Assembly: GCA_023475345.1 (NCBI GenBank) | Contig: JAMCWD010000033.1 | Span: 1 to 64,000 of the forward strand | Length of the DNA: 64,000 bases | Source of the DNA: Chloroflexota bacterium | GTDB taxonomy: Bacteria > Vulcanimicrobiota > JAMCWD01 | Direction: 5' to 3' | Shown here: positions 1,520 to 45,280 of the stretch, one piece after another | Position numbering within the stretch: the first letter of the stretch is position 1 | Layout: every line of letters starts with the position of its first letter | The notes under the pieces: model-generated | What the model saw: only the letters and a program-made list of their open reading frames with translations | Told to the model about the DNA's origin: nothing | Databases searched by the model: none | Made by a program: the position numbers and the translations under genes

Positions 1520-4072
1520 TTACTCCTGATCTTTCGGGTTTCCGGGGGTCGTCTCGGGAGGCGGGGGAGTCATTCCCTCACTATGGGTAGTCTCACCGGC
1601 CGGGCCGAACAATTTTCCGGGAATGAATTTCACCGTTTCCCCGTCTGCCACGGCTACTAAGGTTTCCCCCGGTTCCGGGCGTTCGGCTATCAAAGCCGAA
1701 GCAAGCGGCTTGGCGATGTAATTCTGGATCGCGCGGTTAAGCGGTCTTGCCCCGTATGCCGGGTCGTATCCTTCTTTTTCAAGGAGCAAAATGACCGATT
1801 CGTCGATCTTTAGTTCGATATCCTTGCCTGCAATCAGTTCCTTCAGCGTTTCCAGGTGTAATAAAATGATCTGGGACAGAACATCCTTGCCGAGAGGGTT
1901 GAAGACAAGTATTTCATCGATCCTGTTTAAAAACTCCGGGCGGAAATTTTGCCGGAGGACTTTCATGATCTCTTCTCTGACTTTAGGGTCTCTGGTGTCG
2001 AGGAGCCTGATATTGCCGTTTTCATCCACCTGGCTTGTGCCAAGGTTGGATGTCATAATTATAACGGTATTTGCAAAATTAACCGTCCTGCCCTTCCCGT
2101 CCGTGAGGCGGCCGTCGTCGAAAACCTGGAGGAAAAGATCGAAAACTTCGGGATGTGCTTTTTCAATTTCGTCCAGGAGCACCACGGAATAAGGCTTCGT
2201 GCGAACCAGGCGGGTAAGCTGCCCTTCTTCTTCATGGCCCACATAGCCGGGGGGCGACCCTACAAGGCGGTAAATGGTATGCTTGTCCATGAATTCGGAC
2301 ATATCCAGCCTGATCATATCCTTTTCGCTCCCGAAAAGGAATTCGGCAAGGGCTTTTGCAAGCTCTGTCTTCCCTACCCCGGTGGGGCCGAGGAAGAGGA
2401 AGACGCCGCTCGGACGGCTGGGCGATGTAAGTCCCATCCTTGCCATGCGTATAGTCTCGGCAACCGCTTTTATAGATTCACCCTGGCCCAGTACACGCTC
2501 TTCGAGATAATCTTCAACGGCAAGCAGCCGTTCCGATTCTTCCTGGGTGAGCTGAGCGACAGGTATGCCTGTCCATAATGAAACAACCTCTGCGACCTGT
2601 TCTTCATCGACCTGAAAGGAAGGGACTCCGGATTCCGCCGCCGGTTTGTCGGTGCCCAGGGAATGAGTTTTTACCCTGGCCGCGGCCTCGTCGATAAGAT
2701 CAATGGCCTTGTCGGGGAGATTCCTGTCGGGCAAAAACCTCACGGACAACTTCACCGCGGCAAGCAGAGCCTTCTCGGTGAACGTTACTCCGTGATGCTT
2801 TTCATACCTGTCCTTGATCCCTTTAAGGATCTCGAAAGCCTCCGCCTCGGACGGCTCGTTGACAAGCACGGGCTGGAACCGCCTTTCAAGCGCGGGGTCT
2901 TTTTCGATATATTTCCTGTACTCGTTGGTAGTGGTGGCGCCGATACAGGGGAACTCTCCCCTTGAAAGCGCGGGCTTCAAAATATTCCCGGCATCCATGC
3001 CGCCGCGGGAATCTCCCGCGCCGGCAATCGTATGGATCTCATCGATAAACAGGATAATCTCGGGGGCTTTCTTGACCTCATTCATCACGTCCTGGAGGCG
3101 TTCTTCAAATTCCCCGCGATGCTTGGCGCCAGCCAGGATCCCCGACATGTTAAGCTCAAGCAGCACCTTGTCCTTCATGGCTTCGGGGACTTCGCCGCTT
3201 GCGAGCCTCAAAGCCAGGCCGTAAACTACGGCTGTCTTGCCGACACCCGCTTCGCCGATGAGGACAGGGTTGTTTTTTGTCTTCCGGGTAAGCGTTTGGA
3301 GGACACGGCGGATCTCGTCGTTTCTCCCGATCACCGGGTCAACTTTGCCTTCCCTGGCAAGCTCAACAAGGTTCCGGGCATAGCGGTCCAGGTGAGGGGT
3401 TTTTGTTTTCTTGTCTTTCTCAAACTCTTTCTCGATCTTTTTTTCCGGGCTGGCCCCATCGCTTTTCATCCCCATAAGACTTGAAAAGGCCTTTTCGGTA
3501 TTTCCCCCGACTTCGATAAGCGCCCTGGAAGGCACAGAATTGCGATCTTTAAATATCGAAGCAAGCAGGTGCCTCGGCTCGATGTTATATGCTTTATCTT
3601 CGACTGCTTGCTCTTCGGCCTTTTTCATAAGCCGCTTGAGCCTCGGCGTGGTGGGTATGCCTTCCCAGTTTGCGGCTTCAAGGCGGGGGGGACATAATTC
3701 AAGTATCTTCTCCTCGTAGCGGCCCGGGACCTGAAGCACATTTACCAGCCATCCCTCTTTCAGCCCTGCCAGGACATAATGCTCACAACCAAGGTAAAAA
3801 TGTCCCAGATCTTTACATAATTTCGTTGCCCTGTCTTTCATCTCATCGAGGGACCCGGAAGGATATAACGGCATGTTTTCACCTCTTTTTGGGGTTTGAT
3901 CTCTATCCTTAGATTGATATTCTTCTGGGGAATACCTGTCAATTTCCTGCCGGGATTCATCCGGCGGTTCTTCGTCCTGTTTTTTTCCTGGAATAACGAG
4001 CCTGACCTTACCGTAAGGGCGCCCTTTTTTATCCGTCATCCCGGACGGGGAAACAGGCTTTGAAACTTCCAT
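1520..4072 (-). CDS. Clp-type double AAA+ ATPase (no middle domain)
   Basis: An 850-aa protein unfoldase with a Clp N domain (from about residue 67), AAA-1 with Walker A GEAGVGKT and Walker [10 protein letters not shown], and AAA-2 with GPTGVGKT and [15 protein letters not shown], followed by the C-terminal small domain. The linker between the two ATPase modules is short: the coiled-coil middle domain of ClpB/ClpC is missing, as in ClpA. At the place of the ClpP-binding I/V-G-F/L loop I read NIRLLDTRD, so docking to ClpP looks unlikely. The ATG at 4072 follows the RNase H gene by 14 bases. A second in-frame ATG at 3874 has a strong AAAGAGGTG site seven bases upstream and begins exactly at the Clp N domain. 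The preceding 66 residues are charged and probably disordered, so a shorter 784-aa form may be the main product. Confidence 0.93.
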
Positions 4073-4086
4073 ATCAATAATATCCC

Positions 4087-4971
4087 TTACTGCTCCAGGA
4101 CTTTTCTTGCTCTGTTGAGCACTTCCTTTTCGTTGTAATAGGTCAGCTTTCGCTCGGCCTGGCCGGGCGAGAACCACTCCACGAGATATGCTTCCTTATC
4201 ACGCTCCCTTGCGTTTTCTTCCACAAGTTCCATCCTGAAAAAGTGTACTTTTTTATGATAAAGCGTGTTCACATCGCGCCAGTAAAATTTGTATTCCAAC
4301 TCGGCGATCTTTTCGGCAACCCGTGCAAGGTTGCCTGTTTCTTCCAGGATCTCCCGCTCGGCGCACTGTTCGGGAGTCTCGCCCTCACGCAGCCTCCCTT
4401 TCGGCAAAGCCCACACCCTGCCTTCCTTTTTACTGACAAGGCAGACTTTTATCTTTTTCCCGTCTTTCTTATAAACGACTCCGCCAGCCGAGACCTGGAC
4501 ATCTTCTTTGACCTTTTCAGGCTCAACGTTTTCTTTGACGGCTTCTTTTTCGCAAGGAGCAAATTTTTCGTCAATAGCCTCGTTCGCCAGCCTGTCTGCC
4601 GCCTTATTCTCCTCCCTGGGGATGTGAGAAATCTTCCACGTAAATCCCCACGGGTTTCTGACTTTTATAAGAAGTTTCATAAGGTCTTGATTTTTAACCT
4701 TGTACTGCCCTTTGACCTGGCGCACGATAAGCTCCGAATCGGAATAAATCCCGGCATTGCGTATCCCCAATTCGGCAAGTTTTTCCAGGGCTAAGAGAAG
4801 CGCGTTATATTCCGCCTGGTTATTTGTCATTTTACCGAGGTATTTTTTCAGGCGGAAGATCTCGCCGCCATCCGCATCGGTGATACTGACCCCGGCTCCC
4901 GAATGCCCGGGGTTCCCCCTGGATGCTCCGTCAATAAATACTTTTAAGGGTTCGTTATAATCTGTTGCCAT
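4087..4971 (-). CDS. RNase H-like / Nudix hydrolase fusion
   Basis: A 294-aa two-domain protein. Residues about 8-130 are an RNase HI domain with its acidic residues in VFIDGASRGNPG, NNQAEYNALLLAL, IYSDSELIV and NKAADRLANEA; it should cut RNA in RNA-DNA hybrids. Residues about 160-290 are a Nudix domain whose box is almost complete: G, five residues, E, seven residues, REILEETG (GRLREGE...REILEETG). Nudix enzymes hydrolyse nucleoside diphosphate-X compounds. A charged linker joins them. The ATG at 4971 is used; a TTG nine codons earlier is possible. It probably heads the transcript that continues into the Clp, pseudopilin-like and FHA genes. The substrate of the Nudix half cannot be told. Confidence 0.92.
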   Translation of the reverse strand: MATDYNEPLKVFIDGASRGNPGHSGAGVSITDADGGEIFRLKKYLGKMTNNQAEYNALLLALEKLAELGIRNAGIYSDSELIVRQVKGQYKVKNQDLMKLLIKVRNPWGFTWKISHIPREENKAADRLANEAIDEKFAPCEKEAVKENVEPEKVKEDVQVSAGGVVYKKDGKKIKVCLVSKKEGRVWALPKGRLREGETPEQCAEREILEETGNLARVAEKIAELEYKFYWRDVNTLYHKKVHFFRMELVEENARERDKEAYLVEWFSPGQAERKLTYYNEKEVLNRARKVLEQ

Positions 4972-5051
4972 ACTATAGTTTTCTAAGGACGGGGGCAAAA
5001 ACCTGCAAGGGACCGCAGGGTTGGCAATAACTTCATGGCGTTGCCTGATAT

Positions 5052-5080
5052 AAAAAGGCGGCGTTTTTGCCGCCGTCTTT
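5052..5080 (-). terminator. Intrinsic terminator of the acs/MaoC operon
   Basis: On the minus strand a perfect GGCGGC / GCCGCC stem with a six-base loop is followed at once by TTTTT. It lies 27 bases after the stop of the last MaoC-like gene (5107), so it closes the acs operon and separates it from the RNase H-Nudix gene. Confidence 0.85.
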
Positions 5081-5106
5081 GATCGCCGGTTACCGGGCGG
5101 ATACCG

Positions 5107-5586
5107 CTAAAAGCCTTCCCACACGGCTTCAAGGGCGGTCAGTCTCCGCTCCGCAGGGATAACGACCGATTCGCCCTCCAGAACCTGGACCCCGGCCTGG
5201 TTGTAACTTTTGAATTTCACCGTAATCCTGCCCCGTTCCCTGTTAACATCCATAACTTCCGCATCGGTAGTAATCGTATCGCCGCTTCTGACAGGATGGA
5301 GGAACTTGAATTTTTCCCTTACGGTAATACAACCGGCCCCCGGTAATTTGTTTGCAAGGACGGCGTCGGCCAGCCCGCATGTAAGGATGCCCGGCGCGAT
5401 AGGCGCCCTGAAGTGTGTCTTTTCCGTGTAATTCCAATCCAGATACAACGGGTTAAGATCGCCCGTGATGCCTGCATATAAATAAATATCTGTGCTGGAT
5501 ATCGTCTTTGACAACTCCGCCCTGTCGCCGACATTGATTTCGTCGATGGTCTTTCCCAGGTGGAGGAATTTCCTGCCGGAGTGCAT
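5107..5586 (-). CDS. MaoC-like hotdog protein 2 (catalytic His replaced by Tyr)
   Basis: A 159-aa single-hotdog protein of the MaoC / (R)-specific enoyl-CoA hydratase family. The hydratase motif region reads TGDLNPLYLD. In PhaJ-type enzymes this is D-x-N-P-L-H, with Asp and His as catalytic pair; here Asp is kept and His is Tyr. The rest of the fold is intact (IAPGILTCGL helix, FLHPVRSGDTI, EGESVVIP). It is the last gene of the acs operon, and its ATG shares one base with the stop of its paralogue (TAATG), so the two are translationally coupled and may form a heterodimer. Likely acts on, or binds, an acyl-CoA; ordinary hydratase activity is doubtful. Confidence 0.85.
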   Translation of the reverse strand: MHSGRKFLHLGKTIDEINVGDRAELSKTISSTDIYLYAGITGDLNPLYLDWNYTEKTHFRAPIAPGILTCGLADAVLANKLPGAGCITVREKFKFLHPVRSGDTITTDAEVMDVNRERGRITVKFKSYNQAGVQVLEGESVVIPAERRLTALEAVWEGF

Positions 5587-6047
5587 TATTTACCGTCCCC
5601 CTTTTTAGCATGCAGCGGGCGGGGTTTGGCAATGACCTCTCCCTCAAGCACAAGCGTCCCTTCCTGGTTCTTACAGATACAATGAAGCAGTACCTCGTTC
5701 TTTTCTTTATCGACTTTCTCAACTGTTATTTCAGTGGTAACGGTATCATCACTGCGTACCGGGTTCCGGTAACAAAAATCCTGAAAAACCGTTACGGTGC
5801 CGGGGCCGGGAAGCTCCATATCGATGGCGGCGGTAACCAAACCCGCGGTAAATACGCCGGGGACGATAGTCCCTTTGAAGCGCGTATGCCTTGCATATGT
5901 CTCGTCGAGGAAAAGGGGGTTAAGGTCGCCTGTAATGCCGAGATACATGTAAATATCCGCTTCGGACACAGTCTTGCTTAAAGTAGCTTTCTGGCCGGGC
6001 TTGAGGTCTTCGATGGTTTTTCCAATACGGCAAATGTATTCGGGCAT
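5586..6047 (-). CDS. MaoC-like hotdog protein 1 (catalytic His replaced by Phe)
   Basis: A 153-aa paralogue of the next gene (shared KTIxxLxxGxxAxLSKT start, ITGDLNPL, IxPGxxTxGL, VRSxDTxTT). The motif reads TGDLNPLFLD, so the position of the hydratase histidine is Phe. Losing the same residue in both coupled copies suggests a changed reaction, or a binding or structural role, rather than chance decay. It lies 15 bases after acsE. Single-hotdog dehydratases work as dimers, and the coupled stop/start suggests a heterodimer. What it does beside methyltransferase genes is unknown; a link between the acetyl-CoA product and acyl-CoA metabolism is only a guess. Confidence 0.85.
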   Translation of the reverse strand: MPEYICRIGKTIEDLKPGQKATLSKTVSEADIYMYLGITGDLNPLFLDETYARHTRFKGTIVPGVFTAGLVTAAIDMELPGPGTVTVFQDFCYRNPVRSDDTVTTEITVEKVDKEKNEVLLHCICKNQEGTLVLEGEVIAKPRPLHAKKGDGK

Positions 6048-6062
6048 ATTCCGTCCCCTATA

Positions 6063-6869
6063 TTATATTTTCGCAGTCGAGTGCTTCTGGCGATAAGCCT
6101 CCAGGAAAGAATCGCAGTAAATATCCTCGTTCAGCAGGAGGCGCGCGGTGATCATGGCATCCATGAGATCATCGTCGAAGGGATCCAGGATGCATGCACT
6201 CAGCCCCATCGCCATCGCCATGACAAGGTAAGTGCGGTTTATAAGTTTCCTGTTATTGCATTTCTGGGAGACATTGGAAAGCCCCAGGATAACTGCAGGG
6301 GCCGGGTCCGAAAGCATCTTGCACGAGTGGATAGCTTCCAGCACCCTTTTGGGAACATCCTGGGCGGCATTGACCGGGAGAATTATAGGATCGATAAATA
6401 TATCCTCTATCTCGATCTCGTGTTCCATGCAGGCGGCAAGGAACTTCAGCGCAACTTCGGTGCGGCCTTCGGCGGTGCCGGGCACGCCGTTCTCGTCTAT
6501 CGTCAGGCCGATCACCCTGGAGTTGTATTTTTTGGCCATCGGCAAAAGCTTGTTCATGACCTCGGGATCTGCGGTGGTCGAGTTGATAATCGGCTGTACC
6601 CTGCAGTTCTTCAGCCCCGCCTCTATCACATCGGGCTTGGGACTGTCTATGGACAACGGAAACTCCCCGACTTCGTTTATGGTTTTAACAAGCCATTCCA
6701 TTGCTCCAACCTGGTCCCTCGTCGCAGGGCCTACGTTGACATCGAGGCAGTCGGCGCCATGCTCCATCTGAGTTAATGCAAGTTCCTGAATAACGGATTT
6801 ATCCTGCGCCAGGATGGCTTCCTTAACATTTTTGAACATCCCGTTGATTCTCTCGCCTATGATATACAT
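6063..6869 (-). CDS. acsE: Methyltetrahydrofolate:corrinoid/iron-sulfur protein methyltransferase
   Basis: A 268-aa TIM-barrel methyltransferase that passes the methyl group of 5-methyl-tetrahydrofolate to cobalt(I) of the corrinoid iron-sulfur protein in the Wood-Ljungdahl pathway. The length fits the Moorella enzyme (about 262). Residues known to bind the pterin there are found here at the same numbers: Asp75 (LSID), Asn96 (QPIIN), Asp160 (IFID) and Asn199 (LGLSN). The ATG at 6869 is preceded by GAGGG. It follows acsD in the same direction and precedes the two hotdog genes. Distant relatives are the methyltransferase domains of MetH and of other corrinoid systems, but the acsD/acsV context makes AcsE the best call. 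Confidence 0.95.
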   Translation of the reverse strand: MYIIGERINGMFKNVKEAILAQDKSVIQELALTQMEHGADCLDVNVGPATRDQVGAMEWLVKTINEVGEFPLSIDSPKPDVIEAGLKNCRVQPIINSTTADPEVMNKLLPMAKKYNSRVIGLTIDENGVPGTAEGRTEVALKFLAACMEHEIEIEDIFIDPIILPVNAAQDVPKRVLEAIHSCKMLSDPAPAVILGLSNVSQKCNNRKLINRTYLVMAMAMGLSACILDPFDDDLMDAMITARLLLNEDIYCDSFLEAYRQKHSTAKI

Positions 6870-6990
6870 CTCTTACCCTCCCCTGATTTATTCCTTAAAT
6901 TAAAACCCCTTGAAAATTTACAGTATCGGTGCCTGCTTTCCCCTTCTTGATTTCACCTGGCATGAAGGATATATGTCCCCCCTGAAAGAC

Positions 6991-7941
6991 TTATTTCCCC
7001 ATCAATTCATCGAGCATCTGCCTGACGATCTTGAGCGCATGGGGATGGCGAAGCACCAGTATGTCCGAACCTGCCTGGAGCATGGAAATAGCCCCGACGG
7101 CTTCCCATAACGGGGCGCGTTTTTCAATGTCTCCCCATTCCTCGTTTTCGGCCTTGGTTTCCTTGGCCCTCCAGGATTCCTGCCCTATATAACTTATAAA
7201 CGGCTGGGCAAGGACGGTATCGCCGCCGAGGGCCGCAAGCCTTGCGCGCTCCATTATCGAAAAAGTATATTCAAGGCCGTATCCCAGGCCGCCGGTAGTG
7301 GGATCCATAACTATCCTGTCCGTCGGGAACCCCATATCCGTAACGAGTATGTTTACCTGCTTGGCAATGTTTATATCGATGGGGGATTCGGTGATGATAC
7401 AATGACCGTCAGCCAGCGCCGAGGCTACGATGGTCTTGTAATTATCCTGTACCGCAGAGCCTAGAAGCACTCTTTCGCCTGCGGCGGCCTGGCTTGCGGC
7501 CGGGATTATCAGGTTGTCCTTTTCGGCAACGCCCGGAGCCCGGATAATTAAAGGGACCCCTACGGCCTTCAAAACCTTCCTCACCGTTTCGACGGCATGT
7601 TTCTCGTCCGTATCGCCTTCATCCGGGTGAGCGGAAAGAAGTTGTACGGAGATCATCTCCGCGCCGAATTCCTCAACGCATTTCCTGGCCCATTCACCTG
7701 GGTCTCCCCAGACATCGCCGAAAACTTTTTTAAGGGATTCCGAAGGCTCATCAGGGATCTTGTCCAGCACTTCCATTGCCAGGACCGGCCTGTTCGGCAT
7801 CCCGCCTTCAAAATCGTAAAACGGCATGGTAGTCTCGCCGCCTGCCCTGACGACCGCAGTGCGGGTTCCCCCCTCGGCACCGGTAGCGCCAATAATTACT
7901 TCATGGACCTTACCGGTCCATTTTTCCTTTACCAGTTCCAT
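6991..7941 (-). CDS. acsD: Corrinoid/iron-sulfur protein small subunit
   Basis: A 316-aa protein of the AcsD/CdhD family, the small subunit of the CoFeSP heterodimer that carries the methyl group from AcsE to acetyl-CoA synthase. It has the TIM-barrel fold features of the family: VHEVIIGATGAEGGTRT near the N-terminus, FEGGMPNRPVLAMEV, IIRAPGVAEKDN, and DPTTGGLGYGLEYTFSIMER in the second half. No cysteine cluster is present, as expected: the 4Fe-4S cluster sits on the large subunit AcsC, which is not in this window. The ATG at 7941 is preferred because AGGGA lies nine bases upstream; a GTG at 7950 would touch that site. The 121-base gap to acsE shows no other gene. Confidence 0.93.
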   Translation of the reverse strand: MELVKEKWTGKVHEVIIGATGAEGGTRTAVVRAGGETTMPFYDFEGGMPNRPVLAMEVLDKIPDEPSESLKKVFGDVWGDPGEWARKCVEEFGAEMISVQLLSAHPDEGDTDEKHAVETVRKVLKAVGVPLIIRAPGVAEKDNLIIPAASQAAAGERVLLGSAVQDNYKTIVASALADGHCIITESPIDINIAKQVNILVTDMGFPTDRIVMDPTTGGLGYGLEYTFSIMERARLAALGGDTVLAQPFISYIGQESWRAKETKAENEEWGDIEKRAPLWEAVGAISMLQAGSDILVLRHPHALKIVRQMLDELMGK

Positions 7942-8003
7942 ACCCAACACTCCCTGTAATTATTCTTCAATGTTCCCGGAAAATGGAAAATCAGCCGAAA
8001 ATC

Positions 8004-8192
8004 TCAAGAATGCTTGGAAAGCGCCTCGGTTACATCTTCCTCGGTTGCTCCCAGCTTGTTGGCTACTATGGCAAGTATCAGGTTGGCCGTATCCAGACGA
8101 TTGGCAATATCATAAAGACGCATCTGGACAGCCAGCATGACTATCTGGGCTATGAAAATCAAGATCGCAATTACCAGAATTACACCTTCCAC
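8004..8192 (-). CDS. Small single-span membrane protein in the acs operon
   Basis: A 62-aa protein with one hydrophobic helix (about residues 3-22: VILVIAILIFIAQIVMLAVQ) followed by an amphipathic soluble tail (RLYDIANRLDTANLILAIVA, then GATEEDVTEAL). The GTG at 8192 is taken as the start because a perfect AGGAGGG lies exactly six bases upstream; a TTG two codons earlier would be only one base from that site. It sits between cooC and acsD with short gaps, so it is surely co-transcribed with them. No family is recognised. It could tether a CODH/ACS maturation or methyl-transfer component to the membrane; this is inference from position only. Confidence 0.7.
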   Translation of the reverse strand: MEGVILVIAILIFIAQIVMLAVQMRLYDIANRLDTANLILAIVANKLGATEEDVTEALSKHS

Positions 8193-8234
8193 ACTCAACC
8201 CTCCTGTACTTATTTTTGTCTGAATTCCCTCTCG

Positions 8235-9008
8235 TTACCGGATTTTCCTCCACGATTGGAATAAAGTATCCATTATTCCGCCTGCCGCTTTTACGGAAAC
8301 CGCATCGTCAGGCAGATCAAGAAGCGGCTTCCCCTCGAGAACAAATTCATAAACGAGGGGGTCATACGGGATTGTACCCCACAACTCGAGACCGCTCTTT
8401 TCCGCTTCTTCCATCACTTTACCGGGGATTTTTTCAGGCGCCCTGGCAAGAACCAGCCCTTCTTTCCCCGCGGTTATTTTCAGCTTCCTGGCCACCTGTG
8501 CTATACGCACTGCGGATTCCAGCCCTACGGGGGTCGGCTCGGAAACTATGAAAAGGTTATCCACGTTCCTTGCAGTCCTTCTGGAAAGATGCTCCATCCC
8601 GGCCTCGTTATCCATAACCACCACTTTGTACGATTTCGAAATGCCCTCCAGGTGCTTCTGTAAAAGGGTGTTGGCATAGCAATAACAGCCCGGCCCTTCG
8701 GGAGTGCCCATAACCAGCAAATCCAGGCCGTTACCTTCTTCCAGGGCCTCCTGGAGGCGCAGTTCTATGAAACGGTCCCTGGTCATCCCGGCAGGCAGTT
8801 GATCCGGGTGTATTTCCTTGGATTCCTCGATAACATCCGCGATGCTTTTCGCATATTTGATCCCGAGCGCTTTATCCAGGTTGGCATTGGGATCGGCATC
8901 GATTGCAAGAACGGGCGCGATCCCGAAACCCATGATATGCTTTATCAGCAGGGCCGCAAGCGTCGTCTTGCCGGTACCTCCCTTGCCCGCTATCGCCAGA
9001 AAAGTCAT
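8235..9008 (-). CDS. cooC: CooC/AcsF-type nickel-insertion ATPase
   Basis: A 257-aa P-loop ATPase of the MinD/NifH-like family that helps load nickel into carbon monoxide dehydrogenase/acetyl-CoA synthase. It has the deviant Walker A GKGGTGKTT at residues 9-17, AIDADPNANL, VVMDNEAGMEHLSRR, and the C-x-C metal site of the CooC family (GCYCYAN, Cys108 and Cys110). The C-terminal part (LVLARAPEKIPG, LWGTIPYDPLV) is typical. It lies 53 bases downstream of acsV. Its presence implies that the cell makes a nickel CODH/ACS, encoded outside this window. AcsF, the ACS-specific paralogue, is an equally good name. Confidence 0.92.
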   Translation of the reverse strand: MTFLAIAGKGGTGKTTLAALLIKHIMGFGIAPVLAIDADPNANLDKALGIKYAKSIADVIEESKEIHPDQLPAGMTRDRFIELRLQEALEEGNGLDLLVMGTPEGPGCYCYANTLLQKHLEGISKSYKVVVMDNEAGMEHLSRRTARNVDNLFIVSEPTPVGLESAVRIAQVARKLKITAGKEGLVLARAPEKIPGKVMEEAEKSGLELWGTIPYDPLVYEFVLEGKPLLDLPDDAVSVKAAGGIMDTLFQSWRKIR

Positions 9009-9061
9009 TTTCCCCCCGGTTGATTTTATTAATTTAAAGATTTATACCATAAACCCTCAGG

Positions 9062-10972
9062 CTATTTCCATCCCAATTCCTTCAGCACATTCGGGAAAAG
9101 ATCGCTTTCAGTGTGCGGCAGAAACAGTGCCGATGTAAATTCGTTCATGAAACCCGGCTCGACGCTCAACTCGAAATTCGTCATCATCCTGGCCGTCAAA
9201 CCTGCCCTCTCGAACGCTTTCCTCGACTTCAGACACAACCTTGCCCCGGTCAGCGAACTGTTCCCGATGAACTGAAATTTATCCATGTCTATATCGGGAA
9301 GGAGGCCTATCGTAACTGCATTTTTCAGGTTGATGTAATTCCCGAAACCGCCGCCTATATAAAATTTCGACAGGTCGTTGAAACTCAAGCCCGCTTTCTG
9401 GAACAAAAACCGCGCCCCTACATACATCGCGCCCTTTGCCCGGAGCAGGTTCTCCATATCGATCTCCGTAAAAACGACATCTTCCCCGCTCGCAGTCTCC
9501 CCGGCATAAACTACAACGAATTCCATGCCCTCATCGGAGCTTCTCAGCCTGTCCCCCGCTTTTTCGGTAAACCTGCCCGCCCTGTTTACAAGGCCGTTCC
9601 TCATCATCCCGGCAACTAGGTCAATCAATCCAGACCCGCAGATCCCGCGCGGCTTAACATCCCCGATAACCCTGTACGATATATCGCCGTTATCGATTTT
9701 TATCTCCTGGATAGCCCCGGCGGACGCCCTCATGCCGCATTTTATCCCGCCTCCTTCAAACGCAGGCCCGGCGGAACATGAACAGCACATGAGCCAGTCT
9801 TTACAACCCAGCACCACTTCGCCGTTCGTGCCGATATCCATCAGGAAGCTTATCTCATCGGAATCCGCAAGTCCCGAAGCTATGACGCCGGATGTGATAT
9901 CGCCCCCGACATAGCTGGCAACCCCCGGCACGCATCTCAGGAGTCCCCGCGGGTTTATAAAAATGCCGGCTTCCATAGCATGAACCGGCGGCAGTTCTGC
10001 AGCCACCGGGATATAAGGCTCTCTCCGTATATATGACGGATCAAGCTTCAGCAAAAGATGCATCATCGTCGTGTTCCCCGCGGCAACAACACACGTTACA
10101 TCATGGATTGAAATCCCGTTTTCCGAACAGATGGACGAAATCAGCCGGTTTATCGCCCCTGAGACGACCCGCTGAAGCTGCTCCAGTCCGCCGTTTTTCC
10201 CTGCATAAATGATCCTGGATATGACATCGGCCCCGAACGACGCCTGGGGGTTATACGCGGCCCTGGTCTCAACAATGCCGTTACGCGCAAGATCTACAAC
10301 GCTGACGGCTATCGTGGTGGTCCCTATATCTACGGCAGCCCCGTAATTCCGCCCGGAACAATCCCCCTCCTCGATATCTATCACTTCAATATTGCCGTTA
10401 CAATTGCCCGCCGCAGCGGTTACCTTCCATTCCGATCCGCGAAGGAGGGCCGGCAGCCTGCTTATGTTATAAAGGCTGATATTTATGGAAAAGTTGTCGT
10501 GATGTTCCCTGATGCCCCTCACAAGCCTTGAGAGGTCGCTCATGCTGTCATTCAAAGACGGCGGCGGGAGTTCGAGGAAAATCTTTTCGCACAACGGGGA
10601 AAAGGGATAAGATATTTCCTTTTCAAGTTTCTCAAGGCCGGTAATTTTTTCCGAATGGCCTTCTCCGGGCAGAGCCTGGATCTCGCCGACCCTTGAGTCC
10701 TGTGGGATTTCAACCGAGCAGTCGGAATCCACGTTTGAAATACATGCAAGCACCAGGGATTTTCGGATCTCGTCCCTTGAAAGAAGCGCGGTAGGAGCCA
10801 TGTTAACATGGCCTTCCCTTACGATCATCCTGCATTTCCCGCAGATGCCTTCCCCTCCGCATGAAGCATCTACAGGGATGCCTGCCGACCTTGCCGCAAA
10901 CAACAGCGTCTCGCCGCGCGGGAGCTCGACTTTTTTTTGATCGGGATAAAATGTAACTATTACTTTTTCCAT
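9062..10972 (-). CDS. acsV: Reductive activator of CoFeSP (RACo / AcsV)
   Basis: A 636-aa protein that reductively reactivates the corrinoid iron-sulfur protein when its cobalt is oxidised, coupling ATP hydrolysis to electron transfer. Residues about 1-90 are a [2Fe-2S] ferredoxin domain with the C-x5-C-x2-C pattern (CGGEGICGKC) and a later cysteine in LVLACISN. A linker follows, then an ASKHA-type ATPase region with GAAVDIGTTTIAVSVVDL near residue 211, VAAGNTTMMHLLL, LMDIGTNGEVVLG, GPAFEGGGIKCGMRA and FYIGGGFGNYINL. Length and order match RACo of acetogens. It is the first gene of the operon; upstream is a 310-base gap with an inverted-repeat element. It ends 53 bases before cooC. Confidence 0.94.
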   Translation of the reverse strand: MEKVIVTFYPDQKKVELPRGETLLFAARSAGIPVDASCGGEGICGKCRMIVREGHVNMAPTALLSRDEIRKSLVLACISNVDSDCSVEIPQDSRVGEIQALPGEGHSEKITGLEKLEKEISYPFSPLCEKIFLELPPPSLNDSMSDLSRLVRGIREHHDNFSINISLYNISRLPALLRGSEWKVTAAAGNCNGNIEVIDIEEGDCSGRNYGAAVDIGTTTIAVSVVDLARNGIVETRAAYNPQASFGADVISRIIYAGKNGGLEQLQRVVSGAINRLISSICSENGISIHDVTCVVAAGNTTMMHLLLKLDPSYIRREPYIPVAAELPPVHAMEAGIFINPRGLLRCVPGVASYVGGDITSGVIASGLADSDEISFLMDIGTNGEVVLGCKDWLMCCSCSAGPAFEGGGIKCGMRASAGAIQEIKIDNGDISYRVIGDVKPRGICGSGLIDLVAGMMRNGLVNRAGRFTEKAGDRLRSSDEGMEFVVVYAGETASGEDVVFTEIDMENLLRAKGAMYVGARFLFQKAGLSFNDLSKFYIGGGFGNYINLKNAVTIGLLPDIDMDKFQFIGNSSLTGARLCLKSRKAFERAGLTARMMTNFELSVEPGFMNEFTSALFLPHTESDLFPNVLKELGWK

Positions 10973-42598: not shown

Positions 42599-43942
42599 TT
42601 ATGCTACTACCTCTTTCACCTTCTCGGTAAAGTGGACGCCGTGCTTTTCGACAAGCTCTTTCAGGACGGGGTTATATATTTCCGGTATAACCGGGATAAT
42701 AACGCCGGAGCCTTTCAGCAGGCCCTGGAGTATCATCCGGGTGGCTATTGCGGCGGGGAGACCCACGGTGCGCGCCATCGCGGTATCGCCGTGAGGTATG
42801 CCGTAATCTATGAAAAGGGATGTGATGTGCTCTTTCTTCCCGCCGGGATATTCGGCGTCGAACTCGTGCTGCATGATGATCATATCTCTTTCGCCCTTCC
42901 GGTAAAAAAGCTCTCTCAAAAGAAGATCGGCCAGAACGTCAAGAGGACTGCTTTTCTCGCATGTCAGCTTTTCTTCATCACTGAAAATGCCGATATGCTC
43001 AAGTTTCTTTATTACGGGATCATCGGGTTTTATGCCCAGCTTTTCCGCAATATGGGCCTTGACATCGCCTTCGGGATCGGCTCCTACCACGCCCGCCATG
43101 AATTCAAGATATGTCTTCCCGGACAGATCCAGTATCTCTTCCTTGCTCAGCAGACCCATCTCGGTTATCTTATCCCATGTACGGCACCAGTCGAGGTTCC
43201 TCAATGTCCCGCGGTACATCGTGTTTACCCCTTCGAGACCGTAAATATCGATGTAACCGAGAGAATCCCTGTTGGGATATGCTTCGAATTTCCCCAGACC
43301 TTCTACATCAAGGATATGATTATCTTCAAACAGCTTCCCTGTGGGGATATCGACGATTTTCCCATTCAAAAGATAGCGAGCGCTGTTCGTAGCTGCAAGA
43401 ACTACCCCCTTCGGGCTCCAGGAGAACTTGTAGCCGTAAGGGTTATCGTTGGCCTCCGGCGCGGGAAGCCCGCCGCAGTAAGATCTGAAAGCCGTTATTT
43501 TGCCGCCTTTTGACTTGACCCTGTCTATGACCTGCATCGCCGACATGTGGTCGATGCCAGGGTCAACACCTATCTCGTTCAGCAGCATAACGCCAGCCTC
43601 TTTTGCGGCCGCGTCCCTTTCCTTCATATCCTTGCTGACATAAGAAGTCGTAACTAAGTGCTTTTTATGCTTGATGCAAAGGTCCGCAACCTTGACATGA
43701 TAAGCATACGGGAGAAGGCTTATCGCCAGGTCGTGATCCGCAACAAGCTTTTCCAGCGGCTCTATGCCGTCATTGACGACATCCAGCTTGACCGCTTCTG
43801 CGTTCAAGTGATTCCCGACAAGGGCCTCGGCCTTCGACAGCGTCCTGCTTGCAATCGTCATGAAGAAATCGGGTTCATCAAGAAGATAGTTGACCAGTGG
43901 TCTTGTTACCAGTCCTGCTCCGAGCAAAAGAATGCGTTTCAT
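42599..43942 (-). CDS. Saccharopine dehydrogenase (glutamate-forming type)
   Basis: A 447-aa NAD(P)-dependent enzyme. The N-terminal Rossmann motif is ILLLGAGLVTRPLVNYLLD. Other family marks are HLVTTSYVSKDM, NEIGVDPGIDHMSAM, SYCGGLPAPEANDNPYGYKF and SYSPKG-like SWSPKGVVLAATNSA. The sequence matches the C-terminal half of the animal bifunctional enzyme AASS, and yeast Lys9: it cleaves saccharopine to aminoadipate semialdehyde and glutamate in lysine breakdown (or the reverse in synthesis). It lies 24 bases downstream of the gene for the partner half, so here the two activities are separate proteins in one operon. Confidence 0.9.
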   Translation of the reverse strand: MKRILLLGAGLVTRPLVNYLLDEPDFFMTIASRTLSKAEALVGNHLNAEAVKLDVVNDGIEPLEKLVADHDLAISLLPYAYHVKVADLCIKHKKHLVTTSYVSKDMKERDAAAKEAGVMLLNEIGVDPGIDHMSAMQVIDRVKSKGGKITAFRSYCGGLPAPEANDNPYGYKFSWSPKGVVLAATNSARYLLNGKIVDIPTGKLFEDNHILDVEGLGKFEAYPNRDSLGYIDIYGLEGVNTMYRGTLRNLDWCRTWDKITEMGLLSKEEILDLSGKTYLEFMAGVVGADPEGDVKAHIAEKLGIKPDDPVIKKLEHIGIFSDEEKLTCEKSSPLDVLADLLLRELFYRKGERDMIIMQHEFDAEYPGGKKEHITSLFIDYGIPHGDTAMARTVGLPAAIATRMILQGLLKGSGVIIPVIPEIYNPVLKELVEKHGVHFTEKVKEVVA

Positions 43943-43966
43943 ATTATTACTCCTCTTTTCTATTAT

Positions 43967-45280
43967 TTATTTTTCGACATACTGCCTTATATATTCATAC
44001 GCCGGGGTGAACCTGCCCCGGTGAATTATAACCGCATTTTTCAATTCCGCGGGAAGGTTCAATGAACCGAAATCCGCATCGTAATCCGCCGAGACCAGGG
44101 CTGGCACGAATTTTTTTATAATGCCGCTGAAAAAATCGGACGAGTCGCGCGGCAGTTCGCTGGGCAGGAAATCGACCGCCAGGACAACCACTCCCCTGCC
44201 CTCCCATCCGTCTTTTATCGTGCCGTCTTCCGGGTTATATACGTAAACCGGGTTACCGGGGTCTGTGGGCTTGAGAGTACACTCAATGGACCCCTCCACA
44301 TCACAACTCACGTCTCCTATGACCCGCAGGCGGACGTGGACGCCCTCTTCATCCCACTTTTTAAGCTGTTCTTTTGTCAGGAGCCTGGGATAACGCTCTT
44401 CCCAGTAGATCCCGTTCAACAGCACCGTCAGGTGGGGGGTGTATCTTTCAAATATCGACCTGTATTTTTCAGGGTGCCTGTAATATTCGTCAAGGTTGAA
44501 TATGGCGCCGGGCTCCACCGGCTCGACCATGTCTTCCTCATGGAACACGACTTTATATAAACGGTCGCCCGGCAGGTTTTCTTTTTTAACTACGGAGGCC
44601 ACGTCACCGGGCTTTATCTCTTCAAACGGCAGCAAGTCGAATACTTCCTGCGCCCCTATAGAAACATTCCCGTAGCCTGCGAAGCCGAATATCATGGGCC
44701 GCAAATTTTCGGGCAGGGGATTTTCTTTCAGCAGTCCGCCCACAGCCGAGATCGATTTTCCGGCTTCTTCCAGATCCTTATATTCCTTTGCACACAGGAT
44801 TTTCGAAAAGGGCGTTTCGTACCCTTCCCACTCAAGCCTTTTGCCAAGCGCCCACAACGAATCTATCATGCCCGCCTGGCCCGCCTGCCTGCCGAAAAAT
44901 ACAAGCCTCCGGCCTTTTTCATCGACTATCTTCTCATAATCGATTAAAGTACAACCGAGCTCCATCATCCTCCTGAGCATCGGCATATTATATTCCTGTC
45001 CCTTGATGACATGCGAAAAAAAGACATACGTTCTGTCCGGAAGAAAAAAAGACGGCGGGATCTCCTTTACCCCCATAACGACCCTGCAATCGGAGAGGTC
45101 CTCGTTAATCTCGGCACCGGCACAACGGTATTCCCGCTCGTTATATATCCTGGTCCCTGAAGGCTGCACTACAACATTTATCCCGAAACTCTCAATCAAA
45201 TCCCTTATGTCGTCAGGCACAAGGGGAACCCGCACTTCCCACCTGTTCTTGTCTTCTCTCCTGATGCCCAGGTTGTACAC
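43967..45280 (-). CDS. Lysine-ketoglutarate reductase (AASS N-terminal-half-like)
   Basis: A 437-aa enzyme of the alanine dehydrogenase/LKR superfamily. The N-terminus NLGIRREDKNRWEVRVPLVP, SHVIKGQEYNMPMLRRM and GFAGYGNVSIGAQEVFDLLP correspond to the lysine-ketoglutarate reductase half of animal and plant LKR/SDH. It should condense lysine and 2-oxoglutarate to saccharopine. The C-terminal part (IGDVSCDVEGSIECTLKPTD) is also characteristic. With the next gene it gives a complete saccharopine pathway step pair. No downstream aminoadipate-semialdehyde enzyme is in the window, so direction (breakdown or synthesis) is inferred only from similarity to catabolic AASS. Confidence 0.88.
   Translation of the reverse strand: MYNLGIRREDKNRWEVRVPLVPDDIRDLIESFGINVVVQPSGTRIYNEREYRCAGAEINEDLSDCRVVMGVKEIPPSFFLPDRTYVFFSHVIKGQEYNMPMLRRMMELGCTLIDYEKIVDEKGRRLVFFGRQAGQAGMIDSLWALGKRLEWEGYETPFSKILCAKEYKDLEEAGKSISAVGGLLKENPLPENLRPMIFGFAGYGNVSIGAQEVFDLLPFEEIKPGDVASVVKKENLPGDRLYKVVFHEEDMVEPVEPGAIFNLDEYYRHPEKYRSIFERYTPHLTVLLNGIYWEERYPRLLTKEQLKKWDEEGVHVRLRVIGDVSCDVEGSIECTLKPTDPGNPVYVYNPEDGTIKDGWEGRGVVVLAVDFLPSELPRDSSDFFSGIIKKFVPALVSADYDADFGSLNLPAELKNAVIIHRGRFTPAYEYIRQYVEK

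Follow-up and report, generated by a model that had tools for sequence, protein, structure and literature searches.

The window examined here, by which we mean the whole 64,000-nucleotide stretch of DNA, carries on its minus strand two adjacent genes for MaoC-like hotdog proteins, M1 and M2, at the end of a run of Wood-Ljungdahl (acs) genes. The features of this unit are as follows.

9062..10972, minus strand: acsV, RACo-type corrinoid activation protein (NCBIfam AcsV at 664 bits, under the 800-bit cut-off)
8235..9008, minus strand: cooC-like nickel-insertion ATPase (CbiA P-loop match)
6991..7950, minus strand: acsD, corrinoid iron-sulfur protein / ACDS delta subunit (profile searches)
6063..6869, minus strand: acsE, methyltetrahydrofolate:corrinoid/iron-sulfur protein methyltransferase (NCBIfam PRK07535, above cut-off)
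5586..6047, minus strand: M1, His-less MaoC protein of 153 aa with DLNPLF and IVPGV; C-terminal tail lost
5584..5588, minus strand: TAATG, overlap of the M1 stop and the M2 start; translational coupling, as read from the sequence
5107..5586, minus strand: M2, His-less MaoC protein of 159 aa with DLNPLY and IAPGI; C-terminal tail ...LEAVWEGF
5057..5074, minus strand: intrinsic terminator hairpin GGCGGCAAAAACGCCGCC (GGCGGC-AAAAAC-GCCGCC), followed by TTTTT

The sequence-only reading had reported two MaoC-like frames without the hydratase histidine at this place, translationally coupled and lying directly after acsE and ahead of the operon terminator, and this description was confirmed throughout. 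Pfam identifies both frames as MaoC proteins; the sequence at the motif is GITGDLNPLFLD in M1 and GITGDLNPLYLD in M2. M1 follows the end of acsE after a gap of 15 nt, and a GGGGGA-like Shine-Dalgarno sequence sits 5' of the TAATG overlap. The hairpin and its T-run (5074..5057) close the acs-M1-M2 unit downstream of M2 on the same strand.

The cooC-like ATPase of the window is 50-52% identical to the gene at the same position in loci L129-L132. Between it and acsD lies a hydrophobic 62 aa ORF (8004-8192, minus strand) that has no Pfam match and may encode a small membrane protein belonging to the acs operon. CODH and acetyl-CoA synthase are encoded on a different contig of this genome, C5, where locus L160 holds a second Wood-Ljungdahl cluster (1572-10305) with genes for a P-loop ATPase, CODH, ferredoxin-like, NuoE-like and NuoF-like proteins, a 2Fe-2S protein and acetyl-CoA synthase; this gene set suggests an NAD-linked CODH. 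Two further loci of the window were judged by eye. An ORF at 4087-4971 (minus strand) reads as an RNase HI domain at the N-terminus fused to a NUDIX hydrolase domain at the C-terminus, and an adjacent gene pair at 42599-45280 (minus strand) resembles saccharopine dehydrogenase and lysine-ketoglutarate reductase, a possible lysine degradation pair.

Fold and active site of M1 and M2

Membership of the hotdog superfamily is supported by profile and by predicted structure. Pfam MaoC_dehydratas (PF01575) matches M1 and M2 at 67.5 and 67.0 bits against a cut-off of 27, and their AlphaFold models (pLDDT 84 and 83) lie 1.1-1.3 Å from PhaJ-type (R)-hydratases (1IQ6, 5CPG), the nearest solved relatives. 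M1 and M2 share 47% identity across a 135-residue alignment. The best NCBIfam match of both is PRK08190, at 109-112 bits against a 282-bit cut-off. A FapR-like regulator and a fused phosphotransacetylase were considered and dropped, since M1 and M2 have neither a DNA-binding nor a phosphotransacetylase domain.

The hydratase dyad of PhaJ (1IQ6) consists of Asp31 and His36 (PMC2698920). M1 and M2 keep the Asp, and the His is replaced by Phe in M1 and by Tyr in M2. Neither protein matches the hydratase 2 motif, [YF]-x(1,2)-[LIVG]-[STGC]-G-D-x-N-P-[LIV]-H-x(5)-[AS] (PMC4491049): M1 fits at every position except the His, and M2 also misses the final [AS]. The sequence-only reading held that the rest of the active site was intact, which proved wrong. 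The His-Gly motif is Pro-Gly in both proteins, the first residue of an F/Y-x-G motif is always Tyr, and M2 bears an extra tail.

Nearly all aligned relatives outside one clade keep the His at the dyad position, so its loss in M1 and M2 is not a matter of chance. The first and second positions covary: across 193 aligned MaoC places, taken from fetched loci with duplicate fetches counted, 150 were His/His, 38 Tyr/Pro and 5 mixed. Among 124 distinct proteins, 18 have Tyr or Phe at the His position, and in every one of these the second place is Pro and the YxG residue is Tyr. The full combination of D-x-N-P-x-[YF], Pro and YxG Tyr is thus found in 18/18 members of the clade, M1 and M2 among them, and in 0/106 of the others. 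Within the clade the Asp and Asn-Pro are invariant, the His is replaced without exception, Tyr takes its place in 17 of the 18, and His-Gly has become Pro-Gly/Ala/Ser/Thr. A C-terminal tail of the form xE[DNTG][YF] is present in 15 of the 18 (16 if MENF is counted) and in 0/106 others; M2 has one and M1 does not. M1 and M2 are very probably not canonical hydratases, in agreement with the original reading. A MaoC protein at about 3000-3450 of locus L216 (genome G306), placed outside the His-less clade, combines the catalytic His with a Pro in the His-Gly motif (NPIH ... IVPG) and is a possible intermediate state.

Loss of the catalytic His has precedents in subunits of larger hydratases. ChsH2 carries the same His-to-Tyr change, is called non-catalytic and works with the His-bearing ChsH1 (PMC11321319), and HadA lacks the hydratase 2 motif that HadB has (PMC4491049). 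M1 and M2 might likewise be inert subunits, each with a His-bearing MaoC partner that supplies the dyad. Against this, M1 and M2 are the only MaoC-domain (PF01575) proteins found in the 86%-complete assembly of the window genome, so a partner of the ChsH1-ChsH2 or HadAB type is unlikely there. In the 13 genomes of the Syntrophomonas phylum in which a clade member was detected, no second MaoC match was found at E <= 1e-25, a threshold that more distant MaoC proteins may fail to reach. The clade thus appears able to function with no closely related His-bearing partner. We regard the inert-subunit explanation as quite unlikely.

Descent and selection

The 18 His-less proteins among the 124 sampled, here termed MaoC-Y, formed one clade in maximum-likelihood trees. 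Support was 99/99 in a tree with the first eight members and 98/93 after the diagnostic motif columns and the tail region had been removed, so that common descent does not depend on the motif itself. This monophyly indicates a single loss of the His that predates both the split of M1 from M2 and the origin of the operon in the window. The proposal that both genes lost the same residue within this operon was not supported: the loss is ancestral to the clade. M1 and M2 branch off successively rather than as sisters, on long branches (0.8-0.9 changes per site) that make their placement unsure, and a recent local duplication as the source of the pair is not shown by these trees.

In three acs-linked relatives the dN/dS of the MaoC-Y gene was 0.06-0.08, similar to that of acsE in the same genomes (0.05-0.07). 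Such low values (about 0.07 in this one lineage) indicate that selection maintains the altered site, in the acs-linked relatives at any rate. M1 and M2 could be decaying, non-functional copies at the end of an operon, as their long branches and the Phe and missing tail of M1 would allow. A reading as pseudogenes was considered and dropped. Both frames are intact, coupled and furnished with ribosome-binding sites; GDxNP and PG are conserved in the two proteins, and the clade is under strong purifying selection elsewhere, in the lineage examined. Decay is a highly improbable explanation.

Purifying selection would also suit an enzyme that is still active as a hydratase, dehydratase or lyase on an unusual substrate, with Tyr standing in for His. 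The invariant Asp and Asn-Pro, and Tyr in 17 of 18 members, are what would be seen for functional residues. However, the non-catalytic ChsH2 is reported to carry Tyr at the same site, the Phe of M1 has no acid/base group, and the His-Gly motif has been replaced as well. We judge continued activity of this kind unlikely.

Gene neighbourhoods and the proposed link to acetyl-CoA synthesis

MaoC-Y genes were found in acs operons in the window and in four genomes of one class in another phylum (G356, G274, G536 and G331). The order in those four is acsB-acsC-acsV-cooC-acsD-acsE-MaoC; next on the 3' side come a pair of NfnAB-like iron-sulfur flavoprotein genes, then formate-THF ligase and ndk. In the G274 locus (L130) a strong inverted repeat, GGCCGCAGCGC...GCGCTGCGGCC, lies at about 6565-6690 between the MaoC gene and the following gene, and the acs unit of that genome may also end at MaoC. 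An acsD tree places the window genome near the class of G356 with weak support (86/65, 83/76), a result that bears on a possible horizontal transfer of the whole acs-MaoC operon between the two. The linkage of the pair to acs genes that had been anticipated was partly upheld, in that a single-copy homologue follows acsE in the four genomes; among the genomes sampled, two copies in tandem turned up in the window genome alone, and the clade is single-copy everywhere else.

Other members of the clade, in unrelated bacteria, have other neighbours, some of them named from the first residues of their ORFs. MaoC-Y lies downstream of icd-mdh in L211 and L218 and downstream of citrate synthase and icd, without mdh, in L219, in all three ahead of a response regulator. 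It adjoins a two-subunit fumarase and a malic enzyme (the latter identified from its first residues only) in L217, follows a three-subunit 2-oxoacid:ferredoxin oxidoreductase in L133, and has mixed neighbours in L214. In L134 and L148-L153, all from one class, it sits between a hemL-like aminotransferase and ndk. Given such varied contexts, with the hemL-ndk arrangement shared by a whole class, a link of the clade to central carbon metabolism rests on about four independent neighbourhoods.

Co-occurrence was assessed in 399 genomes from the Syntrophomonas phylum, of which 120 have acsD and 13 a detected clade member. acsD was present in 4/13 clade-bearing genomes and in 120/399 overall, which is the level expected by chance (Fisher p = 1.0 for 4/13 against 116/386 of the remainder). 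One could suppose that MaoC-Y assists the acs pathway alone, for example as a partner of acetyl-CoA synthase or of the corrinoid protein; its placement downstream of acsE in two phyla, within a common gene order, favours this. On the other side, no member was detected in 116 of the 120 acsD-bearing genomes, eight clade-bearing genomes that were searched (G174 plus seven from the hemL-ndk class) lack acetyl-CoA synthase, and G453, a class-mate of the four acs-linked genomes, has acsD-acsE without MaoC-Y. An acs-specific accessory is accordingly a doubtful explanation. Two lineages do show a genuine linkage to acs, but the family as a whole does not make a habit of it. Chance co-occurrence and the eight genomes without acetyl-CoA synthase leave a role specific to the Wood-Ljungdahl pathway unsupported, and the part in acs-based acetyl-CoA synthesis that the sequence-only reading suggested for the pair is further weakened by the TCA, 2-oxoacid oxidoreductase and hemL/ndk neighbours.

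Searches for further clade members found none in 149 genomes of the window's own phylum. In 395 genomes of a Desulfobacterota-type phylum none was detected among the best-ranked matches, all at 187 bits or less, where clade members score at least 203 bits. A pattern scan of the genome collection with M2 returned only three loci, all with ordinary His-bearing hydratases; two are Syntrophomonas tandem pairs and one is near a PHA synthase-like gene. The tandem PhaJ-like hydratases of Syntrophomonas (L034, 9494-10423; L035, 9493-10423) are a parallel duplication in which the dyad is kept. A literature search for MaoC proteins together with acsE, corrinoid or acetyl-CoA synthase found no paper in the library searched.

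Proposed role and comparison with known systems

We favour the explanation, at a probability of about 0.55, that M1 and M2 are tandem MaoC-Y members and that MaoC-Y proteins are non-hydratase, CoA-ester-binding hotdogs loosely tied to central carbon metabolism. The water-activating His was lost once, long ago, and the rest of the site altered alongside, with His-Gly giving way to Pro-Gly/Ala/Ser/Thr, a Tyr fixed in YxG and an acidic-aromatic tail at the C-terminus. M1 and M2 would retain the hotdog fold together with the Asp-x-Asn-Pro portion of the CoA-ester site, and presumably do not hydrate enoyl-CoA. M1 and M2 may bind a CoA thioester that neighbouring enzymes produce or consume, acetyl-CoA or the CoA ester of a C4 acid being the obvious candidates, and might either hydrolyse it slowly or serve, without catalysis, as a sensor or as the partner of an adjacent enzyme. 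Their coupling and asymmetric divergence suggest that the two possibly form a heterodimer, in which M2 would carry the conserved site and tail while M1, with its Phe and no tail, would have drifted further. A more ambitious version, which we consider somewhat improbable, makes MaoC-Y an unrecognised family that handles CoA esters (as thioesterase, sensor or repair enzyme) for acetyl-CoA and the TCA cycle, and makes the pair in the window an obligate, acs-dedicated heterodimer.

The clade appears to be uncharacterised; its fold and superfamily are already known. The database name "dehydratase" is unsupported by the active site of MaoC-Y. With genes for acetyl-CoA synthase, isocitrate-malate dehydrogenase, fumarase and 2-oxoacid oxidoreductase as its neighbours, such a conserved protein would fill a gap in core metabolism.

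Four known systems invite comparison. PRK08190, an enoyl-CoA hydratase/phosphate acetyltransferase fusion (hydratase by annotation), resembles M1 and M2 in its N-terminal MaoC domain, whereas M1 and M2 lack the phosphotransacetylase domain and score far below the 282-bit cut-off. According to PMC3425587, a "maoC" gene of Bacillus anthracis lies downstream of mdh/citC/citZ; the uncharacterised Bacillus "maoC like domain protein" that it encodes, GBAA4836, matches the L211 and L218 members in gene position, as it does the L219 member except that mdh is absent there, and it is by gene position alone that we liken it to MaoC-Y.

With the PhaJ-type (R)-specific enoyl-CoA hydratases (1IQ6, 5CPG), M1 and M2 have in common a lone hotdog domain some 150 aa long, sequence identity of 32-34%, a model rmsd of 1.1-1.3 Å and GDxNP with its Asp. 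They differ in Tyr or Phe for His, in PG for HG, in the extra tail of M2 and in a locus without a link to PHA synthesis genes. ChsH2 and HadA are likewise MaoC hotdogs with the catalytic His replaced (by Tyr in ChsH2). Those proteins pair with a His-bearing subunit and serve steroid or mycolic substrates; for M1 and M2, in contrast, no such partner was found in the genome, and they retain the Asp and most of the remaining motif.
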